This document shows, piece after piece, positions 47,705 to 63,323 of a stretch of DNA of 63,323 nucleotides (position 1 is its first letter; each line of letters opens with the position of its first letter). Below the pieces are notes generated by a model. That model was not told where the DNA came from. It did not search any database and saw only the letters and a program-made list of their open reading frames with translations. The translations under genes and the position numbers were made by a program. The DNA is taken from assembly GCA_947476045.1 (NCBI GenBank), contig CANJNZ010000019.1, positions 1 to 63,323 on the forward strand, read 5' to 3'. Source of the DNA: Chthoniobacteraceae bacterium. GTDB taxonomy: Bacteria > Verrucomicrobiota > Verrucomicrobiia > Chthoniobacterales > Chthoniobacteraceae.

Positions 47705-48973
47705 CTACTCGAAGCGGATGCTCGCGCTGCGACCATGGGCATCCAGCCCCTCGATGCGGCTGAACTGCTCGATGGTCGCCACGCTTTTGCGCAGCGAGCG
47801 CGCGTCGAGTCGGACGATGCTCGTGCGGCGCTGAAACATATCCGCCATGAGGCCGGGGAACGATTTCCCCGCGCCGCCCGTCGGCAGCGTGTGGCTGGGG
47901 CCTGCGAGAAAATCCCCCGCAGCGACCGGCGACCATCCGCCGAGGAAAATCGCGCCGCTCGTGTGGATGCGCTTTGCCAGCGCGTCCTCATTTTTCGCCA
48001 CGATGGAAATGTGCTCGGGCGCGAAGTCATTCGCGATGGCCACGCCGTCGGTGAGCGACTTCACGAGCACGAGCGCGGCGTTTTGGTCGAGCACCTCGGT
48101 GAGGTATTCGCGGCGCGAAAGTTTCGCAGCCTGCGCGCGCACTTCGCTCTCCACGGCGGCGAGGAGTTTTGTGCTGTCCGTCACGAAAAGGATGCTGCTG
48201 CCGTGGCCGTGCTCGGCTTGCGCGAGGAGATCGGCGGCGACCCACGCGGCGTTGGCGCTCGCATCGGCGAGCACGAGGATTTCCGAAGGGCCGGGCAGCA
48301 AATCAATCGCGCACTGGCCGAACACCTGCCGCTTCGCCTCGACGACCCACGGGCTGCCGGGGCCGAAAATCTTTTGCACGGGGCGGATCGTCTTTGTGCC
48401 GTAGGCGAGCGCCGCGATGGCCTGCGCGCCGCCCACGCGATAAATCTCCGTCGCCCCCGCGTGCCGCAGCGCGTGGAGAAGCGCGGGGTTCACCGCGCCG
48501 GTTTTGTCGCACGGCGTCACGGCCACGATCTCCGGGCAACCGGCGGCGGCGGCGAGCGTCACCGTCATCACCGCAGTCGAGACGAGCGGCGCGGTGCCGC
48601 CGGGCACATACACGCCGACGCGTTGAAAAGGATCGAAGCGCTCGCCGACGAGCGCGCCCTGCGCGTTGCGGGTGCTCCACGTTTTGCGCAGGCTCTTTTT
48701 GGCAAAGGCAAAAACGTTCTTGTGCGCGGTGGCGATGGCGCGGCGCGTGGCGGCGTCCACTTTCGCGGGCCCGGTCACGCGGAGTTGCGCCTGGCGCAGC
48801 GTGGCACTTCCAAATTTCGCCGCGTAGCTCAGCAACGCCGCGTCGCCGTGCTCGCGGATGCCGGCGATGATCGCGGCGACGGTATTGCGCACCTGCTCAT
48901 CCGGCTCCGCGCTGCGCTGAAGTGCGGCGACGGCCTTGGAAAACCCGGGTTTGTTGTAACGAAGAATCTTCAT
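47705..48973 (-). CDS. hisD: Histidinol dehydrogenase
   Basis: The 422-residue enzyme catalyses the last two oxidations of histidine biosynthesis. Landmarks are 'VGVYVPGGTAPLVSTAVMTVTLA', 'GGAQAIAALAYGT', 'VFGQCAIDLLPGPSEILVLAD', 'LLAQAEHGHGSS' (zinc site), 'FAPEHISI' and 'FLAGPSHTLPTGG'. It matches the family over its full length and no other his gene is nearby. It lies upstream of the SPFH operon by 87 bases. Confidence 0.95.
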   Translation of the reverse strand: MKILRYNKPGFSKAVAALQRSAEPDEQVRNTVAAIIAGIREHGDAALLSYAAKFGSATLRQAQLRVTGPAKVDAATRRAIATAHKNVFAFAKKSLRKTWSTRNAQGALVGERFDPFQRVGVYVPGGTAPLVSTAVMTVTLAAAAGCPEIVAVTPCDKTGAVNPALLHALRHAGATEIYRVGGAQAIAALAYGTKTIRPVQKIFGPGSPWVVEAKRQVFGQCAIDLLPGPSEILVLADASANAAWVAADLLAQAEHGHGSSILFVTDSTKLLAAVESEVRAQAAKLSRREYLTEVLDQNAALVLVKSLTDGVAIANDFAPEHISIVAKNEDALAKRIHTSGAIFLGGWSPVAAGDFLAGPSHTLPTGGAGKSFPGLMADMFQRRTSIVRLDARSLRKSVATIEQFSRIEGLDAHGRSASIRFE

Positions 48974-49096: not shown

Positions 49097-50605
49097 TTAT
49101 CGAGGAGGGTTCTTGGTGCCGTCGGGAAAGGTGATGTCGGTGTTCGGCAGGGCGGCGCGCAGTTCGCGCAGCGCGGCGGCGGGGATTATGGTCCAGCCGA
49201 GGAGGGTGAGCGATTGCAAGCTGGTGAGGCCCTTGAGGCCGTCCACGTTTTGCAGCGCGGTGCAGTTGTTGAGGACGAGCGATTGCAGGGCGGTGAGGCC
49301 CTTCAGGCCGTCCACGTTTTGGAGCGCGGGGCAGCCGAAGAGGAGGAGCGTTTGCAGGCCGGTGAGGCCCTTGAGTGCGTCCACGTTTTCGTCCTGACAT
49401 CCGTAAACATACAAATCCGTCGGGCGGAGCTGGTGAAGCATTTCGCGGTAGCGGCCAAGGTCGGGGACTTCTTTCATCCAAAGCACGCGCTTGTGCTCGC
49501 CCCATGTCTTCTTTTTGAGCGCATTGTGCCAGTCTTGCCGAATGAGGCTGATGGCGTCATCGCACGTCCACCCGAACCGCGCCTCCTTCGCTTGGCGGAC
49601 GGCGTTGTTGTAGGCGTTGAGCTTCCACACCTGCCAGCCGATGCCGCCGAGGAAGACGACGATGAGCACGCACCAAATCTTCTTCCCAAAGCTGCTCTCG
49701 CTTTTCGTGGTGTGCCCGTCTTTCACGCGGGCCTTTTGCTCCGGGATGCGGAGTTTGGCAAGGCGGGGATGGGCAGGGGCGGTGGATCGTGGCGACAGCC
49801 TTTGGACTGCGGCGGCGGGGGTGTTGGCAACGGCCCCCATCGCAGCCGGGGCGACGTCTTTCTCTGTCCGGGTGGCGTCCTTCTCTGTTGGAGAGCCTGT
49901 TTCCTCTGTTGGTAGGTCGTCATTCCGCCGTCCAATGACTTCATTCCGTCGTCCAGTGACTTCATTCCGTCGTCCAGTGACTTCATTCCGCCGTTCAATG
50001 ACTTCATTCCGTCGTCCAGTGACTTCATTCCGCCGTTCAATGACTTCATTCCGCCGTCCAATGACTTCATTCCGCCGTCCAATGACTTCATTCCGTCGTC
50101 CAATGACTTCATTCCGCCGTCCAATGACTTCATTCCGTCGTCCAATGACTTCATTCCATCGTCCGGTAACGTTACTCCGCCGTCCGGTAACGCTACTCCG
50201 CCGTCTGGGATGCATACCATTTCCCAGAGTAACGATACCGAGAGGCGCGGTATGCCTACCATTGACGCCGGTAGTCATACCGCCGCGTCCGGGATTTATC
50301 CCAAGGGATACAGGGGTCGTCCCGCGACTCCCGGGATAAATCCCATTGCTCGAAATGACGATACCACGGCTTCCGGGATGAATCCCATGGGTCGCGGTGG
50401 CAATACCATGAACGTCGGTATGGATACCGCGCGTTCCGGGATGAATCCCACGAGGCGGAATCACGATACCGCGCCGTCCGGTATGGCTACCATGGCGCGG
50501 AATAACCATCCCATGCCTCGCAATGACGATACCATGTGCGCCGGTATGGATACCATTGTCTGCGGGGGAAGCGCCATTTCTCTCAGAGAAGCTCCTCTGT
50601 AGCAC
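49097..50605 (-). CDS. Leucine-rich-repeat membrane protein behind a heptapeptide-repeat region
   Basis: The C-terminal half is clearly coding. A membrane helix ('IWCVLIVVFLGGIGWQVW') is followed by a cytosolic or periplasmic linker and three leucine-rich repeats of about 23 residues ('VDGLKGLTALQSLVLNNCTALQN'). The upstream 230 residues come from a 21-bp repeat array and read as heptapeptides ('GRRNEVI', 'GIHPGSR'). Whether the true start lies before the array (GTG 50605) or inside it (several in-frame ATG) is unclear; an ATG-led frame at about 50575 reads out of phase and stops at 50461. The LRR part probably mediates protein binding. Confidence 0.55.
   Translation of the reverse strand: MLQRSFSERNGASPADNGIHTGAHGIVIARHGMVIPRHGSHTGRRGIVIPPRGIHPGTRGIHTDVHGIATATHGIHPGSRGIVISSNGIYPGSRGTTPVSLGINPGRGGMTTGVNGRHTAPLGIVTLGNGMHPRRRSSVTGRRSNVTGRWNEVIGRRNEVIGRRNEVIGRRNEVIGRRNEVIGRRNEVIERRNEVTGRRNEVIERRNEVTGRRNEVTGRRNEVIGRRNDDLPTEETGSPTEKDATRTEKDVAPAAMGAVANTPAAAVQRLSPRSTAPAHPRLAKLRIPEQKARVKDGHTTKSESSFGKKIWCVLIVVFLGGIGWQVWKLNAYNNAVRQAKEARFGWTCDDAISLIRQDWHNALKKKTWGEHKRVLWMKEVPDLGRYREMLHQLRPTDLYVYGCQDENVDALKGLTGLQTLLLFGCPALQNVDGLKGLTALQSLVLNNCTALQNVDGLKGLTSLQSLTLLGWTIIPAAALRELRAALPNTDITFPDGTKNPPR
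49921..50571. repeat. 31-unit array of 21-bp repeats with embedded palindromes
   Basis: Units keep an exact 21-base period from 49921 to 50571. The first 12 (49921-50172) are nearly identical: each starts cattccgc or cattccgt and ends caatgactt or cagtgactt. The other 19 are diverged but in register. At many diverged unit junctions a short palindrome appears: GGGAT with ATCCC, or GGTAT with ATACC (for example gggatgaatccc and ggtatggatacc). Within the conserved part, four of the six reading frames are open. Confidence 0.85.
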
Positions 50606-50626: not shown

Positions 50627-51787
50627 TTACCGGGGTGGGCGGGTTTGGAGGATGATGTCGTAGGTGGGGCGGGTGGTGCCGTCTTGGAAGGTGACGCCGT
50701 TGGGGGAAAAGGGGATGCCGGTTTCGTGCTGCTGGCTGCGGGTGCTGAGGGCGGTGATGCCGTGGGAGGTGACGGGGCGGACTTCGCCGGGATCGGAGAT
50801 GCCGTTGGCGTTGGCGTCGCGCCAGAGGGCGAGGCCGTCGAGTTCGTGGCCGGTGAGGGTGCCGTCGCGGTTGTCGTCGAGGAGGGAGAGGGCTTGGTAG
50901 CCGTCGGGGCAGAAGAGGAGGAAGGTGCGGTTGCCAAACATCTGGATGGCGGAGGTGATTTTGCCGGTGTGCTGCGGGTCGAAGACGAGCCATGCGGCGT
51001 CGGGGGTGATCCACTGCCATTCGAGCTGGCGCCCGGTGCCGTCGAGGTCGAAGCGGACGCGGGCGTCGCGGTTGATGAGCGGGGCGAGGGCGGTGTGTTC
51101 GGCGAGGGGGATGATGATGGGGGAGATGGCGTGAGGGAGGCGCTGGAGTTTCTCTTTTCTTTCCCTGAGCACTGCGATTTCGGCGGCATCTTTCGTGGGG
51201 TCGAGGAGAGGGATGAGATAGCCTGCGGTCTCGACATAGAGGAAATCTCCGAGCCCCCCGCTCTGGCTTTTGCCCTCTATTTTCCACGCGGCTGCGGCGA
51301 CTTCACGATAGAGAGCGATGGCGGTAGCCTTTTCCCTAAACTGCTCCTGACACCATGCGAGGCCGAGTTTGATGGTGTTGTCGTCGGGCTTGATGGCGAG
51401 GGCCTTCTTGTAGGTCTCAATGGCGGTAGCGAGGTGCGCTTTGGCTGTCTCCACCCGCTTTTCGTTCGCCGCTTTGGCGATCTTAGCGTAAGGCACATAA
51501 GGAATCTCGTGCCCGAACCAAAGCTCCTCCTCGGGACCATTTTTGCCACTTACGTTCCACGTTTTCACCAAACCAAATTCCCCGATATTGCCCGCGTAGG
51601 CCATGGCGTGGGTGCGTGCGAGCTGGTGGAGGGCTTCACTATTTGCGGGTTCCGCTTTCACGCGCTCGGCGATGTTGGTGATGAGGCGTTTGAGCGGGAT
51701 GTCTTTGATCTCCGGCTCGATATACAAGCCATGCGCCGGAATGCAGGCGGAGATGGCGATGAGGAGGATGGCGAGTGTTTTGTTCAT
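50627..51787 (-). CDS. Secreted TPR protein with EF-hand-like calcium motifs
   Basis: The 386-residue protein has a signal peptide ('MNKTLAILLIAISACIPAHG'). A tetratricopeptide-type helical region comes next (about 35-210; 'AKAHLATAIETYKKALAIKPDDNTIKLGLAWCQ'), and then a region with Ca-binding loops: 'FDLDGTGRQLEW', 'DDNRDGTLTGHELDGL' and 'DANANGISDPGEVR'. The loops resemble dockerin/EF-hand metal sites. It lies 24 bases after the DUF2278-like gene and 21 before the array/LRR gene. Function unknown. Confidence 0.7.
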   Translation of the reverse strand: MNKTLAILLIAISACIPAHGLYIEPEIKDIPLKRLITNIAERVKAEPANSEALHQLARTHAMAYAGNIGEFGLVKTWNVSGKNGPEEELWFGHEIPYVPYAKIAKAANEKRVETAKAHLATAIETYKKALAIKPDDNTIKLGLAWCQEQFREKATAIALYREVAAAAWKIEGKSQSGGLGDFLYVETAGYLIPLLDPTKDAAEIAVLRERKEKLQRLPHAISPIIIPLAEHTALAPLINRDARVRFDLDGTGRQLEWQWITPDAAWLVFDPQHTGKITSAIQMFGNRTFLLFCPDGYQALSLLDDNRDGTLTGHELDGLALWRDANANGISDPGEVRPVTSHGITALSTRSQQHETGIPFSPNGVTFQDGTTRPTYDIILQTRPPR

Positions 51788-53770: not shown

Positions 53771-56700
53771 ATGAAACCAATTTTTCTCCGGCGTCACGCA
53801 CGTGCCATTCGTATTTGTGCGGTTCCGTTTGCAGCTTTGTTTGCGGTGGGCGCATCGGCGGCGAACATTTCGTGGACGGGTGCGACGGATGCGGTGTGGA
53901 GCACGGGCGGAAATTGGGTAGGCGGAGTTGCGCCTGCACCGGCTGACACGGCGGTGTTTGATGCGGGTTCGCTGGCAAATTTGACGACATCGTTAGGGAC
54001 GAACTTTTCTGTGCTCGGTTTGAAAGTGACGTCACCAGCGGGAGCGGTGACGATTGCGGGCGGAAATACGCTGACGCTTGCGGGCGGTGGTATTGATATG
54101 AGTGCGGCGTCGCAGGATTTGACGGTGAGTGCGCTGGTGGCGCTGGCGGCGAATCAATCTTGGGATGTGGCTGCCGGACGGACGTTGACGGCGAGTGGCG
54201 CAGTCAGCGGCGCGGTTAATCTGACGAAAATCGGCGCCGGTAAGCTGGTGCTGTCGGGCACGAATACTTTCACGGGAGGAGTGATTGTATCGGCGGGCAC
54301 GTTGCGGGCGCAGGGGAATGCGAATGCGCTGGGAACGGGCGTGGCGACTTTGAGTATATCCGGCGGACGGCTGGAACTGGCGAATGACAACGCGCTTGGT
54401 TTTAACCGCAATACGACAATTTCCGGGAATGCGACGATTGTTTCGGATCGCGTCAATGCAGGGGCGGGCGTGACGCATACGTTGGGGACGTTATCTATCG
54501 GTGGAAATACGTTGAGCACTGCGATGGGTGCGAATGTGAACAGCGGGACGGCGGGCGTGACGTTCGGCGCGACGTCGCTGACGGGCGCGGCGGTTTTCAA
54601 TGTTGGCTTCGGGACGCAACTGACGCTGGGGGCGGTTGCGGACAATGGTAATACGGCGACGCTACGCGGTGGGGGAAATTTCACACAATCAGGAGCATGG
54701 GGGAATGGGGCGGGCGGGTTGACTTTGGAAACCGACTACACGGGTGTTGCGACGCTAAATCAGGCGAATACTTTCACTGGCACGGTCACGGTTAAAAACG
54801 GCGTTCTGGTGGCGAATACGAACGCGGGTGCACTGGGCCTTGGTCTGCTGGATTTGCGTGGGGGCGTTCTGGATTTCAACAATGCGTCCGATTTGGCATT
54901 TAACATAGCCACGATTCTGAACGGAAACGGTCTAATCGTTTCGGAGAAGAACGCCGCGGGCGCGGGCGGGAGCTACACACTCGGCGCGCTGAATGTGAAC
55001 GGCGCATACACGCTCACGATTCGTGCAGGCAATGTGAACAGCGGCACGGCGGGGCTCGTTTTCGGTGCGACGACGTTCAACGGCGATGCGACCGTTGACA
55101 CATGGAACCCCACGATCATCAACAGCAGTAACGCCGGTCCCGGCAGTGTGCAGGTGACTTTCGGCCCGGTGACGGGAAACGGATTTTCGCTGACGAAAGT
55201 CGGCTCGGGCACGCTGCTGAGCACACAGTCGAGCGGCACACCGTTTGGAAATGGCAACGTCGTCCTTCACGGCGGCAGACTTTCCATCGCGCCATCGAGT
55301 GCGGGTGCCAATGCGGTGAACGGCGTCAACGCGGCGGCGGGCAGCACTTTCACCTACCGTGCGGGCACGTTGCAGTTGACCAGCAACGGCACCAGCCTCG
55401 CCTATACCATCGGCAATGCAGGCGCGGCGCCCGATAGCGTGCTAGCGCGCGTGGCGAGCACGAGGGGGACATTGAGCATCGGCGTCACTTCGCTTGCGAA
55501 TCTGCAAACGAGCGAGCAATTCATCGTGAACGGGCAGACCACGGCATCGAATAAAAACGGCGCTGCGAATGGCGCAGGGATCTATGATGCATCGGTCGTG
55601 GCGCAGGACGGCACGGGCGGAAGTTTCGTCGTTGCGGACACAGCGGCAAATGGAGGTTTCAAGCAGGCAGTCTACACGACTGCAGTTGCGGCCAGCGCGA
55701 TCCCGGCGAACACGATTTCCGATGTCACCAGTTCGATTGCGATCAATGACACCAGCAATCCCTACGCGCTGCGCGTGGGCGCATTCACGCTCACCAACAG
55801 CGGCACGACGACGGTGAACGGAGGCGCGGCCAGCTCGACGAACAGCGGCCTCGGCGGTGTCATACTTAATCCGACGGCGACGGTTTCTTCGATCACCGGT
55901 GGCACGCTGGCTTTTGGCTCATCCGAGGGTGTCGTGTATGTCGGTTCCGGCGCGAGCAACGGCTCGATTGCAAGCATCATCACCGGCACTGGTGGGCTCA
56001 CGAAATTCGGTCCCGGCACACTGACGCTGACTAGTGCGAACAACAGCTACAGCGGCGGCACCACGATCAACGGCGGCACGCTTTGGATTACCAATGAGGC
56101 TCAGTTGGGCACGGCCGCCAGCATCAACATCAATGGCGGTGGCACGCTGCTTTTGGGAGACGCTGCCAACAATCCTTCGCTGGCCGCTGCACGAAACATC
56201 GTGCTTGGCCCTGGAATTCAGAACATCGTGAAATGGACCCGCAGATCGGCAACCATCAACGGCGTCATCAGTGGCAGCGGCGGATTGAATTTTGGAGATA
56301 ATACCGCGTGGGGCGGTGATGGCGGCGGCGGCGGGCGGTTCACCTTGAATGCCGCGAATACCTACACAGGAGACACAATCCTAACCTATGCCGGGATCAA
56401 AGATCCCGGGATTGTTGTGGGTAACACGCTCGCACTTCAGTTCACCACGGTGGATTACAATACCACCGACATTCCGAACGGTATCAACGCCGGAAGCATG
56501 ATCATATGGGGTGTCGCCAACCCCATTGTCGGCGGTTTCAAAGGCAATCGTGACTGGAATATGTCCTACCAGAGCAATCCCGCGACGATGAACATCGGGA
56601 ACAACAATCAGGACACGATTTACAGCGGTGTTCTGAGTTCAACGAACACTTCCACCAAGCTGGTCAAAATTGGAACCGGAACGCTGACTCTTAAAGGGGC

Positions 56701-59700
56701 CAATACCTACGCGGGAGGAACGGAAATCCAAAACGGCACGCTCGTGCTCTCCGGGGCAAACACTGGTGCAGGGAATACTTTGATTTCCGGCGGCACTCTG
56801 CGTCTGGCAAACAACCTCGCCCTGCAAAACAGCGCGTATGACACCGCCAGCACCGGCACTCTTTCCTTCGCCACGGGCATTGATACGCCGACGTTCGGCG
56901 GATTGATCGGCAGTGGAAATCTGACGCTGCCAGCGAATGTCACGGGGCTGACTCTCAATCCGCCGGCACTCAAAACGTATTCCGGCCTGTTGAACGGCGC
57001 GACGCCAAGCATGACCGTCACAAAAATTGGCGCTAACGTCCAAGTCTTCACCGGGGCGAATACCTATATCGGCAGCACCATACTCACCGGCGCGGGTGCC
57101 ATGCAGATTGGCGTTGATCCCGTGGGAACCGTCGGCTCCATCACGAGCAGCGCCCTCGGCGTGGGCACGCTCATCTTTAACGGCGGAACACTGGCCTCGA
57201 ATAGCACCACGGCCCGCACGATTTTGAACCCCGTCGCATTCACCGGCAACGCCACGCTCGGCGATGTCACGAACACCGGCAAACTGACATTCAGCGCCAA
57301 CGTGGATTTAGGAGGCGCGGTTCGCACCATCACCGTCAACAGCACCGCGCAGTTTGATGGAAATTTCGGCGGCAACGGCGGCGGAATCACGAAGGCGGGC
57401 ACTGGCCTTTTGATTTTGAACGGCGCTGCAAACAGCAACAGCGGAGCCACGACCATCAGCACTGGCGCAATCCAATTTACCGGCGCGGGCTCCATCTCAG
57501 GCACCGGGAGAAATGTCACTGTTACGTCGCCCGGCGCGGTGGTCTTCGGACCATCGTTCGACACCCATGCCGGGGCCGACATTGCGGCGGCGCTCTTGAA
57601 CCGCATCGTCGCAACTTCCACGGGCGCGATTGCAGCGGACAACTATGCCGGCACGAATTTCAACTTCAACAGCGCAGGACTTACCGCCGCTTCGCTCGGT
57701 GCTGTCGGCAACGTGACCTACACCGGCACGCTCACTCCAAACGGCACGGCCTATCGTATCGGCGGCGGCGGCGGCACGATTACGATGGCGAACACGAACA
57801 CGATCACCGGCGTTGGAAATACGCTGACTGTGAATGGTAGCGCCATCCTCGGAGCGGCGAATGATTTCAACGGCACAACAACGATCAACAGTGGTGCAGC
57901 GCTCACGCTCGGCACAGGCATCACCGGCCAGAACGGTTCCATCGGCAGTGCGAGTGTCGTGGATAATGGAACGCTCGTCTTCAACAACGCCGACACTCAA
58001 ATCTTCGGCGCGGTGATCAGCGGCACCGGCGGCCTGACAAAAAATGGCGTGGGCAATTTGATCCTCAATGCGCTGGAGACCTACGCAGGCACGACTACCC
58101 TCAATGCGGGCACACTTACGCTGAATGGCGGCAATAACACACTGGCGGCGAACAAAGCCATGGTCGTGAATGGCGGAACACTCGACCTCGGCTCCAACAG
58201 TCAATACGTCAGCGCGCTGAGCGGAACGGGCGGAGTGATTACCGGGAATGGCGGAACTCTCACCTCAAATACAACGTCTGCCAGCACCTACGCTGGTTCG
58301 CTCCAAGGCTCTCTTAATTTCGCCAGAGTTGGCGCAAACACCAACATTCTGACACTGACAGGTGACAGCACCACCACGGGAGCTTTCTCCGTGATTGGCG
58401 GCGATCAGCCGCAATCGCAGGGGCCGGTTTTCGGCGGTGTGACGCTCAAGGACGGCGGACGCCTCTCTGGCATCACTGCGCTGAAGATCAGCAACGGGAG
58501 TCTCTTCATTGATAACTCGGGAACAGCAAACGACAATACGCGCATCAACGATTCGGCTACAGTCACACTGGATGGTGGTAGGATCATTTATACCGGACGA
58601 GCTTCCACCGCTTCGACCGAAGCCTTCGGAGCGATCACGGCTAGCACCGGAATGAGCAGCATTTCGGCAACGTCGGGAGGTTCAGGCAGCGCGCAATTAA
58701 CACTGGCGAGTCTGACCCGAAACTCAGGCGCAATGCTCAGACTGGAAGGCACGAGCCTTGGACAGTCTGGAAACAGCAGCCGCATCATCGTTACAGGCGG
58801 GCTCAGCGGGAATCTTGCTCTCATCAACGGTGTCGTCCCGGGCGTTTTCGTCGGGTCGGGCGGCGGGCCTGTGGATTTGGCAGGCTACAATGCGAATGGC
58901 TTTGGTGCAATTGGCACGGCTGGCTTCCCCGCCTACGTAGCACTCGCTGGTGCTGGTCCGACTTCCAATGTTTCCGGCGGCGGCACTGTCACAGCCGGCG
59001 GTCAGACCATCAATGGCATGACCAACGGAAGCATTGCCTTCGTAAACAATGATGATCTGCTGACGCTGACGAGCGGGATGATTGTCCGGGGCTCGGAGGC
59101 TTCTAGCATCGGCACCACCGCCATTCGCGGACGAATGACCTCGGGCACAAGCGAGTTGTTCATCGTGAAAACCAACGAAGGCAGCGGCGGTGGTCAGGCC
59201 GCCAACCTCAATTGCGTCTTCACTGATAACGGTGCGACACTCGTCAAACTCATCCTGAACAATTTCAACCGGACAAATTTGCTGAATCAGACTTTCAATT
59301 TCACCTCCAACAACACGCACACCGGTGGCACCGTCGTATCCGGTGGAAATGAATTGTTTCTTCAGGCATCCACAGCCGGCTGGACGACGATCCCTGCTGC
59401 GAATGATCCGACTCAGGGTCTGATTATCAACAACAGCACCGTCACGATGCAAACCAACGCGCAGCAGATCGCCGCAACGAACGTTGTGACTCTGAACGGG
59501 AGTTCAAAGCTGAATTTGTTTGGTGCAAACACACTCGCCAGCCTTGTTTTCAACAGCAACGGCGGAATCAATGCAGGCGGTTCGGTTCCTACGGTCACAG
59601 GCGGCACAACATTGACTATTGTCGGAGCAATAACTTCGAATCCAACAGAACCCACAGTTACGCCAACGATCAGCGTTCCGACTCTTGACCTAAACGCACA

Positions 59701-62700
59701 GGTCGCGGCGAGCATCAGCGTGAGCGCTTTGCCACAAGGCAATGTCATCAACAGCAACGGGACGCTGACGGCGTTGAATGGGTTATTGATCAGCTCCGTC
59801 GTCCAGAACGGTGGGATCACAAAGTCCGGCACTGGTGTTTTGAACCTCACAGGTGCGAACACATTCACCGGGGATCTAGTGATTGAAAACGGCGTGGTGA
59901 ACATTTCCACCTTCAACGAAAAAACCGCGGCAGGGCCGTTGGGACAGAGTGTGAATACAATCCGCCTCGGAAAGAGCGGCGGGCAGACCGGGATGATCGA
60001 ATACACGGGCACCAGCGTGACGAGCACGAGGCCTTTTACGATGGCGACGGGCGGGACGGGCGGGTTTCAGGTGGATGTGGGGACGCCGACGACGACGCTG
60101 ACGCTACAGGGTTTGATTGATGGCGGCGGTGGTCTGGTGAAAGCTGGGCTTGGCACGCTGAAACTCAACGGAGCTGTGTCGAATACCTACGGCGGACTGA
60201 CCACGGTGTCTGCGGGTGAATTGAACTTAAGCAGGACGGCGGCGGCCAACCTCATCCCGGGCGACATTCTCGTGGCGAGCGGGGCGACGCTCAGCGAGTC
60301 CAGTAACCCCAACCAGATTGCGGACACCTCGGCGCTCACGCTCGCTGGCAGCTATCTTCTCAACAGCCAGAACGAGACAATCGGCTCGCTGACGATCAAT
60401 GGCGGGAGCGTGACGACGGGCAGCGGTGTTTTGACGCTGGGCAATGCGGGGAACCAACTCACCATGACCGGCGGCACCTTTCTGCTGGGAACTGCGGGCA
60501 CTGCCGGAAAGCTCAATCTCAACGGGAATGTGGTCGTCAACAGTTCCTCGACCATCGCTGCCATCAACACGCAGAGCAGCACGCCCAGCACGGTGGATTT
60601 GAACGGCGGAATCCGGACATTTGACGTAGCCGCGGGCACCGGTGCGGCGGCTGGATCAGAAATGACGATCGCTGCACCGCTCACAAGCCCAAGCCCCGTG
60701 GGCGGCGGCATCATCAAGGCAGGCTCAGGAGCTTTGCTGCTTTCCGGAGCGGGCACCTACAGCGGGCCGACGACTGTGAATGCAGGCACGCTCGCCTATG
60801 GTGCGAACGATGTGATTGGCGCTGGCACCGTGACCGTCAATGGAGCCACTGCCATTCTCGCGCTGGGAACGAACCACAACGACAGCGTTGGAACGGTGAC
60901 GCTCGATGGCGGTGGCAGCATCACCGGCAGCGGCACTTCCACGCTCACAAGCACCGGCAGTTTTGAAATGAAGAGCGGCTCGGTCAGCGCGGCACTCTCG
61001 GGCGGCGGCATCCCGCTCAACAAAACCACGAGCAGCACCGTCACGCTCACCGGCGCGAATACCTACAGCGGAGCGACCAATGTCAATGCAGGCACGCTCG
61101 CGTTGATGGGCAGTGGTTCGTTGGGAAACACGGCCATCACCGTCGCTGGCGGCGCTACTTTTGCAGTGAAGCCGGGCAGCACCATCTCCGCCGGCACCAC
61201 GGGTGCGGGCACGGCCGGCGCGTCGCTCACGCTCAATGCGGGCAGCGCGTTCACGATGGCGGACAACGGCATCGGGACATTCAATCTTCAGCAGAACGAT
61301 TCCTTCGCATCAGCCGGCCTGGTAGCCAGCGTCGCCAGCGGAACCGCACCGACGCTCACTTTTGATCTCGGCAACGGCACGATTGATTTGCTCAACGTGA
61401 CGAAAGCCGCGAACACCAGCCTCGCCGTGAAGGGGCAGGTCAATTTCACGACGTTGACCGGACTCAGCAGTCTTACACTCGGCAGCTATCCTTTTATCAA
61501 TGCACTAGGCGGCGGTCTCGGGGCATCAGCATTCACGCTCAGCAACCCGCTCATCGTGGTTGGCTCCAGCGCCTATAGTTTGTCGCTCGCCGACTCGTCG
61601 CCCACGCAGGAAGTTCTGACCATCACTGCCTATTCCGGGGGCGCTGCGATTCAAAAATTTGACCGCACAGCGCCTGCGAGCCTAATCAACGTGCGACCCG
61701 GTGCGACGCTGAGTATGTCCGGCACCCTGGCGAACATTGGCAACGGTAATCTCAACGTCAGCCTCGCCAGCACAGGTGCGCTGAGCGTGACGGGCTTGAA
61801 TTCGGACATCAATCCAGTGACGGGCACGCCCGCCAATATCACTGGCACAATCAACGCCGGTTCGACCGCCGGCTCCCTCGGCTGGCAGGTCACCAATACC
61901 GACAATGGCGCAGCCAACCCGACAGCAAGCATTAGCGGAACCGTCAACGTCTATGACATAGCTAACGCAACATACACCGGCGGCACGTTGGTGCTTGGTA
62001 ACGTTCACAAGTTGGCGACCAGCAGTCAGGCGGTGGCCTTCGGAAACCGGGCTGTGACCGATTCGAACTATCAGGATTTACTGAACGTCTCGGCGACGAC
62101 GAACAATGCAAAAGTAACGGCAACCGGCTTCACCGGCCTGGCCGCAAGCACCGGCGGCAGCACCACGGGCAATCTCACATTTTCCGCCAACACGAGCGCA
62201 GTTGGCAGTCTCGCTAGCACGGTGACGCTGGCTTTGACGAGCAACGCCAACGGACTTGCCGGGCTGAGCAACGGAACGGCGAACGTGGTCGCATCACCAT
62301 CGCCGATCACGATCACCGGACAAGTCTATTCGGGCTTGATGGTTTGGAACGGCGCGTCCGGCGGAAACTGGAACACCGACGCAAACTGGAACGACTCGCA
62401 GGATGCCATTATCCATGCGGCACCGGGACTGGACGCTGCGTTCACCAACGTGGACACCGCAACCTTCGGCAACACCGCAGGTAATGTGAGTATCAACATG
62501 GGCGGCGCGGCACCAAGCCTCAACGCGATCACTTTCAACAGCACCGGCAGCTACACGATCACCGGTGCGAGCGCGATCACGATGGCGGGCACGACGCCGA
62601 CTATCACGGTCACTGGCACACACACCATCAGCGCGCCAGTCACCTTGGCTAGCAGTCTAGGAATCACGACGGGCACAGCGGGCGACACACTGACCATCGG

Positions 62701-63323
62701 CGGCATCATCTCCGGCACAGGCTTCGGCCTGACAAAATCCGGGGCAGGGGCACTCGTGCTCAGCGGTGCAAACACCTACAGCGGAGCCACGACGCTGAAC
62801 GCGGGCACTTTGAGCCTGGGCAGCAGCACGGCACTTGGAAGCGGCACGCTCGTCATCACCGGCGGCACGCTCGACAGCGCGACGGCCAATTTGATCAACA
62901 CGGCAAACAACGCTCAGAACTGGAATGGCAACTTCGCCTTCGCCGGAACCAACAGTCTGAACCTCGGCAGCGGCATAGTGACGATGAACGCCACGCGCAC
63001 TGTAACAGTGAGCGACAAGACGCTGACCATAGGCGGCATCATCTCCGGCAACGGCCTCGGCCTGACGAAATCCGGCGCAGGCAAACTTGTGCTCGGCGGA
63101 ACGAACACCTTCACTGGTGCGACGACGCTGAGCGCGGGCACACTGAGCGTTGGAGCGGACGGCAATCTCGGAAGCGCCAACGCACTCGTCTTCAACGGCG
63201 GCACCTTGCAAGTCACTGGCACGGCATTGACCTCGTATGCGGCGGGAGTCATTGGCAGCCATGCGGTCACGTTGACGCCGAATGCGACCGTCGGCTTCGA
63301 CATCGCGAATGTGGGGAACACAT
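53771..63323 (+). CDS. Giant autotransporter-associated beta-strand repeat (PATR) protein, 3' end missing
   Basis: One frame stays in phase from ATG 53771 to the window end (at least 3,184 codons). I checked the phase at seven well-spaced repeat motifs. It begins with a signal peptide ('RICAVPFAALFAVGASAA') and a start module 'NISWTGATDAVWSTGGNWVGG'. It then carries about sixteen PATR repeats of the form 'LTKIGAGKLVLSGTNTFTGG...AGTL' near 54217, 54720, 55190, 56000, 56330, 56660, 57015, 57390, 57820, 58030, 59815, 60130, 60705, 61015, 62730 and 63060. A second start-like module ('VWNGASGGNWNTDANWND') lies at 62339. Such proteins form long beta-helices at or beyond the outer membrane. The C-terminal anchor is outside the window. 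Confidence 0.9.
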   Translation, partial: MKPIFLRRHARAIRICAVPFAALFAVGASAANISWTGATDAVWSTGGNWVGGVAPAPADTAVFDAGSLANLTTSLGTNFSVLGLKVTSPAGAVTIAGGNTLTLAGGGIDMSAASQDLTVSALVALAANQSWDVAAGRTLTASGAVSGAVNLTKIGAGKLVLSGTNTFTGGVIVSAGTLRAQGNANALGTGVATLSISGGRLELANDNALGFNRNTTISGNATIVSDRVNAGAGVTHTLGTLSIGGNTLSTAMGANVNSGTAGVTFGATSLTGAAVFNVGFGTQLTLGAVADNGNTATLRGGGNFTQSGAWGNGAGGLTLETDYTGVATLNQANTFTGTVTVKNGVLVANTNAGALGLGLLDLRGGVLDFNNASDLAFNIATILNGNGLIVSEKNAAGAGGSYTLGALNVNGAYTLTIRAGNVNSGTAGLVFGATTFNGDATVDTWNPTIINSSNAGPGSVQVTFGPVTGNGFSLTKVGSGTLLSTQSSGTPFGNGNVVLHGGRLSIAPSSAGANAVNGVNAAAGSTFTYRAGTLQLTSNGTSLAYTIGNAGAAPDSVLARVASTRGTLSIGVTSLANLQTSEQFIVNGQTTASNKNGAANGAGIYDASVVAQDGTGGSFVVADTAANGGFKQAVYTTAVAASAIPANTISDVTSSIAINDTSNPYALRVGAFTLTNSGTTTVNGGAASSTNSGLGGVILNPTATVSSITGGTLAFGSSEGVVYVGSGASNGSIASIITGTGGLTKFGPGTLTLTSANNSYSGGTTINGGTLWITNEAQLGTAASININGGGTLLLGDAANNPSLAAARNIVLGPGIQNIVKWTRRSATINGVISGSGGLNFGDNTAWGGDGGGGGRFTLNAANTYTGDTILTYAGIKDPGIVVGNTLALQFTTVDYNTTDIPNGINAGSMIIWGVANPIVGGFKGNRDWNMSYQSNPATMNIGNNNQDTIYSGVLSSTNTSTKLVKIGTGTLTLKGANTYAGGTEIQNGTLVLSGANTGAGNTLISGGTLRLANNLALQNSAYDTASTGTLSFATGIDTPTFGGLIGSGNLTLPANVTGLTLNPPALKTYSGLLNGATPSMTVTKIGANVQVFTGANTYIGSTILTGAGAMQIGVDPVGTVGSITSSALGVGTLIFNGGTLASNSTTARTILNPVAFTGNATLGDVTNTGKLTFSANVDLGGAVRTITVNSTAQFDGNFGGNGGGITKAGTGLLILNGAANSNSGATTISTGAIQFTGAGSISGTGRNVTVTSPGAVVFGPSFDTHAGADIAAALLNRIVATSTGAIAADNYAGTNFNFNSAGLTAASLGAVGNVTYTGTLTPNGTAYRIGGGGGTITMANTNTITGVGNTLTVNGSAILGAANDFNGTTTINSGAALTLGTGITGQNGSIGSASVVDNGTLVFNNADTQIFGAVISGTGGLTKNGVGNLILNALETYAGTTTLNAGTLTLNGGNNTLAANKAMVVNGGTLDLGSNSQYVSALSGTGGVITGNGGTLTSNTTSASTYAGSLQGSLNFARVGANTNILTLTGDSTTTGAFSVIGGDQPQSQGPVFGGVTLKDGGRLSGITALKISNGSLFIDNSGTANDNTRINDSATVTLDGGRIIYTGRASTASTEAFGAITASTGMSSISATSGGSGSAQLTLASLTRNSGAMLRLEGTSLGQSGNSSRIIVTGGLSGNLALINGVVPGVFVGSGGGPVDLAGYNANGFGAIGTAGFPAYVALAGAGPTSNVSGGGTVTAGGQTINGMTNGSIAFVNNDDLLTLTSGMIVRGSEASSIGTTAIRGRMTSGTSELFIVKTNEGSGGGQAANLNCVFTDNGATLVKLILNNFNRTNLLNQTFNFTSNNTHTGGTVVSGGNELFLQASTAGWTTIPAANDPTQGLIINNSTVTMQTNAQQIAATNVVTLNGSSKLNLFGANTLASLVFNSNGGINAGGSVPTVTGGTTLTIVGAITSNPTEPTVTPTISVPTLDLNAQVAASISVSALPQGNVINSNGTLTALNGLLISSVVQNGGITKSGTGVLNLTGANTFTGDLVIENGVVNISTFNEKTAAGPLGQSVNTIRLGKSGGQTGMIEYTGTSVTSTRPFTMATGGTGGFQVDVGTPTTTLTLQGLIDGGGGLVKAGLGTLKLNGAVSNTYGGLTTVSAGELNLSRTAAANLIPGDILVASGATLSESSNPNQIADTSALTLAGSYLLNSQNETIGSLTINGGSVTTGSGVLTLGNAGNQLTMTGGTFLLGTAGTAGKLNLNGNVVVNSSSTIAAINTQSSTPSTVDLNGGIRTFDVAAGTGAAAGSEMTIAAPLTSPSPVGGGIIKAGSGALLLSGAGTYSGPTTVNAGTLAYGANDVIGAGTVTVNGATAILALGTNHNDSVGTVTLDGGGSITGSGTSTLTSTGSFEMKSGSVSAALSGGGIPLNKTTSSTVTLTGANTYSGATNVNAGTLALMGSGSLGNTAITVAGGATFAVKPGSTISAGTTGAGTAGASLTLNAGSAFTMADNGIGTFNLQQNDSFASAGLVASVASGTAPTLTFDLGNGTIDLLNVTKAANTSLAVKGQVNFTTLTGLSSLTLGSYPFINALGGGLGASAFTLSNPLIVVGSSAYSLSLADSSPTQEVLTITAYSGGAAIQKFDRTAPASLINVRPGATLSMSGTLANIGNGNLNVSLASTGALSVTGLNSDINPVTGTPANITGTINAGSTAGSLGWQVTNTDNGAANPTASISGTVNVYDIANATYTGGTLVLGNVHKLATSSQAVAFGNRAVTDSNYQDLLNVSATTNNAKVTATGFTGLAASTGGSTTGNLTFSANTSAVGSLASTVTLALTSNANGLAGLSNGTANVVASPSPITITGQVYSGLMVWNGASGGNWNTDANWNDSQDAIIHAAPGLDAAFTNVDTATFGNTAGNVSINMGGAAPSLNAITFNSTGSYTITGASAITMAGTTPTITVTGTHTISAPVTLASSLGITTGTAGDTLTIGGIISGTGFGLTKSGAGALVLSGANTYSGATTLNAGTLSLGSSTALGSGTLVITGGTLDSATANLINTANNAQNWNGNFAFAGTNSLNLGSGIVTMNATRTVTVSDKTLTIGGIISGNGLGLTKSGAGKLVLGGTNTFTGATTLSAGTLSVGADGNLGSANALVFNGGTLQVTGTALTSYAAGVIGSHAVTLTPNATVGFDIANVGNT

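Follow-up and report, generated by a model that had tools for sequence, protein, structure and literature searches.

The 31-unit tandem array upstream of the LRR membrane protein gene is, with high confidence, a non-coding member of a dispersed intergenic element. In this element a leader is joined to a hypervariable run of 21-bp units, and some copies also carry a trailer. The array lies in a window of 63,323 bp, the whole stretch of DNA that was analysed, from a freshwater Chthoniobacteraceae bacterium. The data suggest that the cell preserves the geometry of the array DNA, and not its sequence. We read the array as a REP/BIME-like series of palindromic units held in helical register by a constraint at the DNA level, a reading to which we give an even chance.

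The 21-bp array and its dyads

The array occupies positions 49907-50557 of the minus strand and comprises 31 units of 21 bp (651 bp), with zero gaps when laid out in 21-bp rows. The earlier note used a different phase (49921-50571), which covers essentially one and the same stretch. Tandem Repeats Finder reports positions 49920-50185 with period 21, 12.7 copies, 0% indels and score 406, and its weaker rows reach 50541. A register scan of the 31 units found no shifted unit. Thus the strict period claimed in the earlier note holds, despite the divergence of 19 units. Codon-shuffled sequence of the same genome yielded zero arrays of any period.

On the minus strand, the 19 diverged units (about 50159-50557), with GGTATCCATACC-, GGGATTCATCCC-like cores, are proximal to the leader and are followed by 12 near-identical units (49907-50158, CGGAATGAAGTCATTGGACGG). 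The leader CTACAGAGGAGCTTCTCTGAGAGAAATGGCGCTTCCCCCGCAGAC occupies positions 50558-50602 of the same strand, and its first part is common to other arrays in this genome and in the sister species. The distal end (49847-49906, minus strand) is trailer-like, of the CCAACAGAG(A/G)AA type, with 10 mismatches in 36 positions here against 1-7 in the best other copies.

The stop codon of a TPR/EF-hand-like gene (50627-51787, minus strand) is situated about 25 bp before the leader. Downstream, as the earlier note had it, is the LRR membrane protein gene (49097-49726, minus strand), whose match to Pfam LRR_4 is sub-threshold and whose coding part contains 69-bp tandem repeats (49139-49444), which correspond at the DNA level to the leucine-rich repeats. 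The hisD gene (47705-48973, minus strand) was the anchor for finding the equivalent locus in relatives. Elsewhere in the window, a very large ORF for an autotransporter-type repeat protein (53771-63322, plus strand, at least 3184 amino acids) runs past the window end.

The diverged units (50159-50557) contain one 12-bp dyad per 21 bp, GGTA-N4-TACC, GGGA-N4-TCCC and variants, with 4-bp arms and a variable 4-bp centre. Complementarity in these units is 0.74, 0.89, 0.79 and 0.58 at distances 3-6 from the centre and 0.21 at distance 7, a level reached by none of 200 column permutations. A significant dyad (matched by no more than 9 of 200 column permutations) is present in 12 of the 20 array segments tested; in these, positions at distances 3-6 are highly complementary and those at 1-2 less so, and complementarity breaks down at 7. 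The other eight segments have no significant dyad, and neither do several 21-bp arrays in other species; congeners show a similar mix of dyad and non-dyad arrays. The period is therefore more general than the dyad, which is not universal.

The arms vary by array: GGTA/TACC, GGGA/TCCC, AATR/YATT, GTTG/CAAC, ATGGAC/GTCCAT. Within some arrays the two arms covary, with z of 2.1 in the diverged window units, 3.0 in C44, 3.0 in C85 of the sister genome, 3.8 in C3, 4.8 in C55 and 7.0 in the window array as a whole, and these counts overstate the number of independent events, since the units are mutually related.

Related loci in this genome and in relatives

The genome contains about 20 array loci with a period of 21 or 42 bp, a count based on array and ORF searches of the genome, sampled in stretches, and on autocorrelation over the fetched stretches; an unbiased 400-kb sample contained one array (C12). 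The units are unrelated between most loci, and several arrays have a stop in every unit. Nearly all arrays are intergenic and occur between tandem, divergent and convergent genes, with no consistent neighbour gene at the array loci. The sister species has more such loci.

The leader consensus CTACAGAGRRGCTTCTCTG(A/G)AGGAAAAG precedes several arrays in both species, with 5 copies here and 7 in the sister. Among 10 genomes of the genus, exact or near matches occur only in these two, and the leader is absent from the other eight. A hairpin CCCAGC..GCTGGGCTATTTTCA precedes several leader copies; it was observed in the leader regions L014, L220 and L226, and at some loci as inverted pairs. Its similarity to Rfam Acido-Lenti-1 is weak (23-32 bits, cut-off 37), and nothing in Rfam scored above threshold. 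Some other arrays carry a trailer, CCAACAGAGAAGAACGCCCC.., at their far end. Separately, a dispersed inverted repeat AGGCTTTGGACTGCGGCGGCTCGACGCCGC occurs upstream of LRR genes (L043, about 430-600; L023, 5575-5750; L222, 12290-12457). In L043 it sits in extra sequence between the array and the LRR gene, and the frame stays open through it.

The sister (G001, CAIYUV010000085) is an uncultured Spartobacteria MAG whose HisD is 99% identical. At the window locus it has the leader and about 12-14 units, against 31 here; the 19 diverged units are missing. A second LRR gene is preceded by an array in the sister (C177) and by none in our genome (C17), with flanks 90-93% identical. Genome G006 (HisD 98%) has an LRR gene beside hisD and no array. 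At two further sites (C12/C145 and C44/C258) an array lies between equivalent flanks in both species, and its ends and register are kept while unit sequences and unit numbers differ. Thus array length changes by whole units, and the sequence of the units turns over from one locus to another and, at a given site, from one species to the other. The flanks of arrays C19 and C48 appear re-assorted in the sister (L221, L225 and L043 versus the window and L009), which suggests recombination at the arrays, as far as contig ends can indicate. One contig of the sister (L233, 1-185) ends in a pure 7-bp tandem repeat ACCAGTC.

The array with the GGTA-type dyad was found in two of 40 genomes of the family, this species and its sister only. 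Other 21-bp arrays are present in the congeners G004 and G002 and in G014, a family member from one further genus; samples of G018, G013, G020, G017 and G015 contained none. An order-level sample (G025) contained one 21-bp array, possibly coding. In viral contigs the GGTA-dyad pattern gave 44 single hits among 2.9 million contigs, probably by chance.

Among 319 units in 20 arrays, one shift of register was called, weak and ambiguous, in a short diverged array. In G004 an array with AAGAC-N4-GTCTT dyads (L191, 10340-10780) shifts register by 1 bp after a single diverged unit. Parsimony gives 508 substitutions in eight arrays, and aligned non-coding DNA of the two sister species has 13 gap openings per 112 mismatches; at this ratio about 59 indels would be expected in the eight arrays. 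The figure is approximate, as the ratio comes from 1387 aligned columns and the arrays were picked by period, which favours those that keep register. Of the options raised in the earlier note, the one at the DNA level is supported, since the register has no clear shift and the arms change between arrays while the dyad geometry stays.

Coding potential and alternative explanations

The conserved units are open in four of six frames and the diverged units in one frame on each strand, as the earlier note described; a single frame, on the minus strand, is open through all 31 units. Permuting letters within columns left both frames open in 33% of trials (65% for the minus frame, 57% for the mirrored plus frame), so that openness on both strands is what column composition predicts. 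When only the spacers are shuffled, both frames are open in 6%. Openness on both strands may be a by-product of the dyad and of a length divisible by three.

To score the array in the LRR frame, we trained a codon model on 400 kb of this genome. The diverged and conserved parts score -0.10 and -0.25 bits per codon, both below background, whereas the TM-LRR part, hisD and the TPR gene score +0.48, +0.39 and +0.53. The TM-LRR part has about ten paralogs in the genome, and in most of them an in-frame stop precedes this part by anything from a few codons to some tens; in one diverged paralog a stop is immediately followed by ATG where the window has GTG (49726). On the evidence of these starts, the LRR coding sequence most likely begins with this GTG (VKDGHTT..., with the TM segment from 49678), about 180 bp downstream of the array end. 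Given the upstream stops and the conserved start in paralogs, the protein has about 209 residues and the 502-aa ORF is its mechanical extension.

One could still read the array as coding, in frame, for an N-terminal domain of the LRR protein that is built of heptapeptides such as GIHPGSR and RRNEVIG. A single open frame spans the leader, array, linker and LRR part, and the sister species keeps the equivalent frame open as well. Diversity is slightly higher at third codon positions, and synonymous single differences number 19 versus 13 expected; these small excesses are the remaining, weak evidence for coding. However, the codon scores are negative, paralogs begin at the conserved GTG/ATG after upstream stops, the openness is no more than expected, and other arrays are out of frame or stop-rich. 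In the orthologous arrays C12/C145 no frame is open in both members, and the second LRR gene, preceded by an array in the sister, lacks one here, the kind of absence that the earlier note had named as speaking against its proposal. Neither a coding signal nor frame conservation in homologs, as in a coding heptapeptide repeat domain, was thus found. Coding on either strand was rejected on the codon scores, the permutations and the C12/C145 frames, and selection on length modulo 21 in a reading frame is not supported; the N-terminal domain is very improbable. A match of Pfam PF21300 (antifreeze beta-roll) over the array frame was taken as a low-complexity repeat match, the frame being without coding signal.

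Slightly less improbable, but still very unlikely, is a role as RNA, in which the transcribed array would form small hairpins in a row. The leader hairpin, a folding z of -4.4 and the sub-threshold Acido-Lenti-1 resemblance of the hairpin upstream of other leader copies would agree with it. But folding is as good on one strand as on the other (z -4.4 and -4.9), mismatches compatible with G-U pairing are not in excess on either strand (GT-type 40 vs AC-type 57), and many young units are perfect palindromes that have no hairpin loop. The RNA array was dropped on the folding and mismatch counts. Since both strands fold equally and wobble-type mismatches favour neither, the constraint appears to act on DNA, not RNA. 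The serious rival, possible although we favour it less, is neutral amplification: palindromic units with a leader would spread as selfish tandem repeats by slippage, template switching or a REP-type transposase, 21 bp being merely the copying unit, without function. It is supported by orthologous sites at which the sister species differ in the number and sequence of their units, by the presence or absence of an array at an orthologous gene and by the variety of intergenic contexts, and also by the leader, shaped as a short palindrome ending in GTAG like described REP families (PMC3733652). Against it, the indels expected in the diverged units are essentially missing, and one period is common to unrelated unit sequences in several species. 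Moreover, neither of the two Y1_Tnp transposase genes of the genome is flanked by the leader, an array, the GGGCTATT hairpin or a GTAG hairpin, and a link between arrays and these transposases was discarded. If the arrays are neutral, they show a short palindromic unit amplifying without loss of period, which bears on the origin of REP/BIME arrays.

If the register is instead held by a DNA-level constraint, the period of 21 bp, two turns of B-DNA, would keep each dyad on one face of the helix. A putative symmetric (dimeric) DNA-binding or nucleoid protein would then bind the array cooperatively; alternatively, the array may act as a phased bend or a cruciform-prone stretch. With 21 bp equal to two turns, the best fit would be a symmetric protein bound in phase or a phased structural feature, and we propose the phased-binding mechanism tentatively, as a fair candidate short of an even chance. 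New units could arise through slippage or unequal recombination, as is the case for clustered REP/BIME repeats. Because the arms differ between arrays, a single sequence-specific protein would not explain them. More speculatively, and rather doubtfully, the arrays may form a class of elements in which geometry is conserved over sequence: dyads exactly two turns apart at about 20 places in the chromosome, their arms and loci replaced rapidly between species, read by a putative symmetric DNA-binding or nucleoid protein. If the register is selected, the many independent arrays with common spacing and differing sequence would offer a natural experiment on helical phasing within a bacterial chromosome; they would also caution against annotating long ORFs on both strands over such arrays as proteins.

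Comparison with known systems

Literature searches turned up no publication about 21-bp arrays between genes of Verrucomicrobia. Plasmid iterons and the ParR/parC repeats, the latter of about 20 bp, recur at about two helical turns, a spacing that lets a dimeric protein bind one face. The arrays resemble them in repeating at about two turns, as an analogy of working only; unlike them, the arrays occupy about 20 chromosomal loci, have differing unit sequences, and have no partner gene identified.

The nearest described systems are clustered REPs and BIMEs, including short-stem GTAG families such as Thauera GTAG-1 (PMC3733652, PMC2817692). REP families tagged GTAG occur in Verrucomicrobia (Opitutus terrae), some with 5-bp stems, and GTAG-REP clusters, although possibly extragenic, can be read into predicted ORF N-termini (PMC3733652). 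As in REP/BIME, the palindromic units are intergenic, arranged in arrays, lineage-specific, dispersed and variable in number. On its opposite strand the leader is a short palindrome followed by the end CTCTGTAG. However, the array units follow one another head-to-tail every 21 bp exactly, contain 12-bp dyads and differ in sequence between arrays. GTAG and CTAC occur two and three times in the array with leader (682 bp), with no regular GTAG in the units. Instead of many copies of one sequence family there are 5 + 7 copies of the leader and units that differ by locus. Since the units lack the GTAG tag and no cognate RAYT was found adjoining the arrays, we do not file the array as a REP family; the leader alone resembles one.

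With intergenic minisatellites (VNTRs) the arrays share non-coding tandem units whose number changes by whole units between relatives, and in this sense the locus is an intergenic VNTR. Unlike minisatellites, the arrays keep one period across unrelated sequences and species, share a leader and trailer, and hold strongly diverged units in register.
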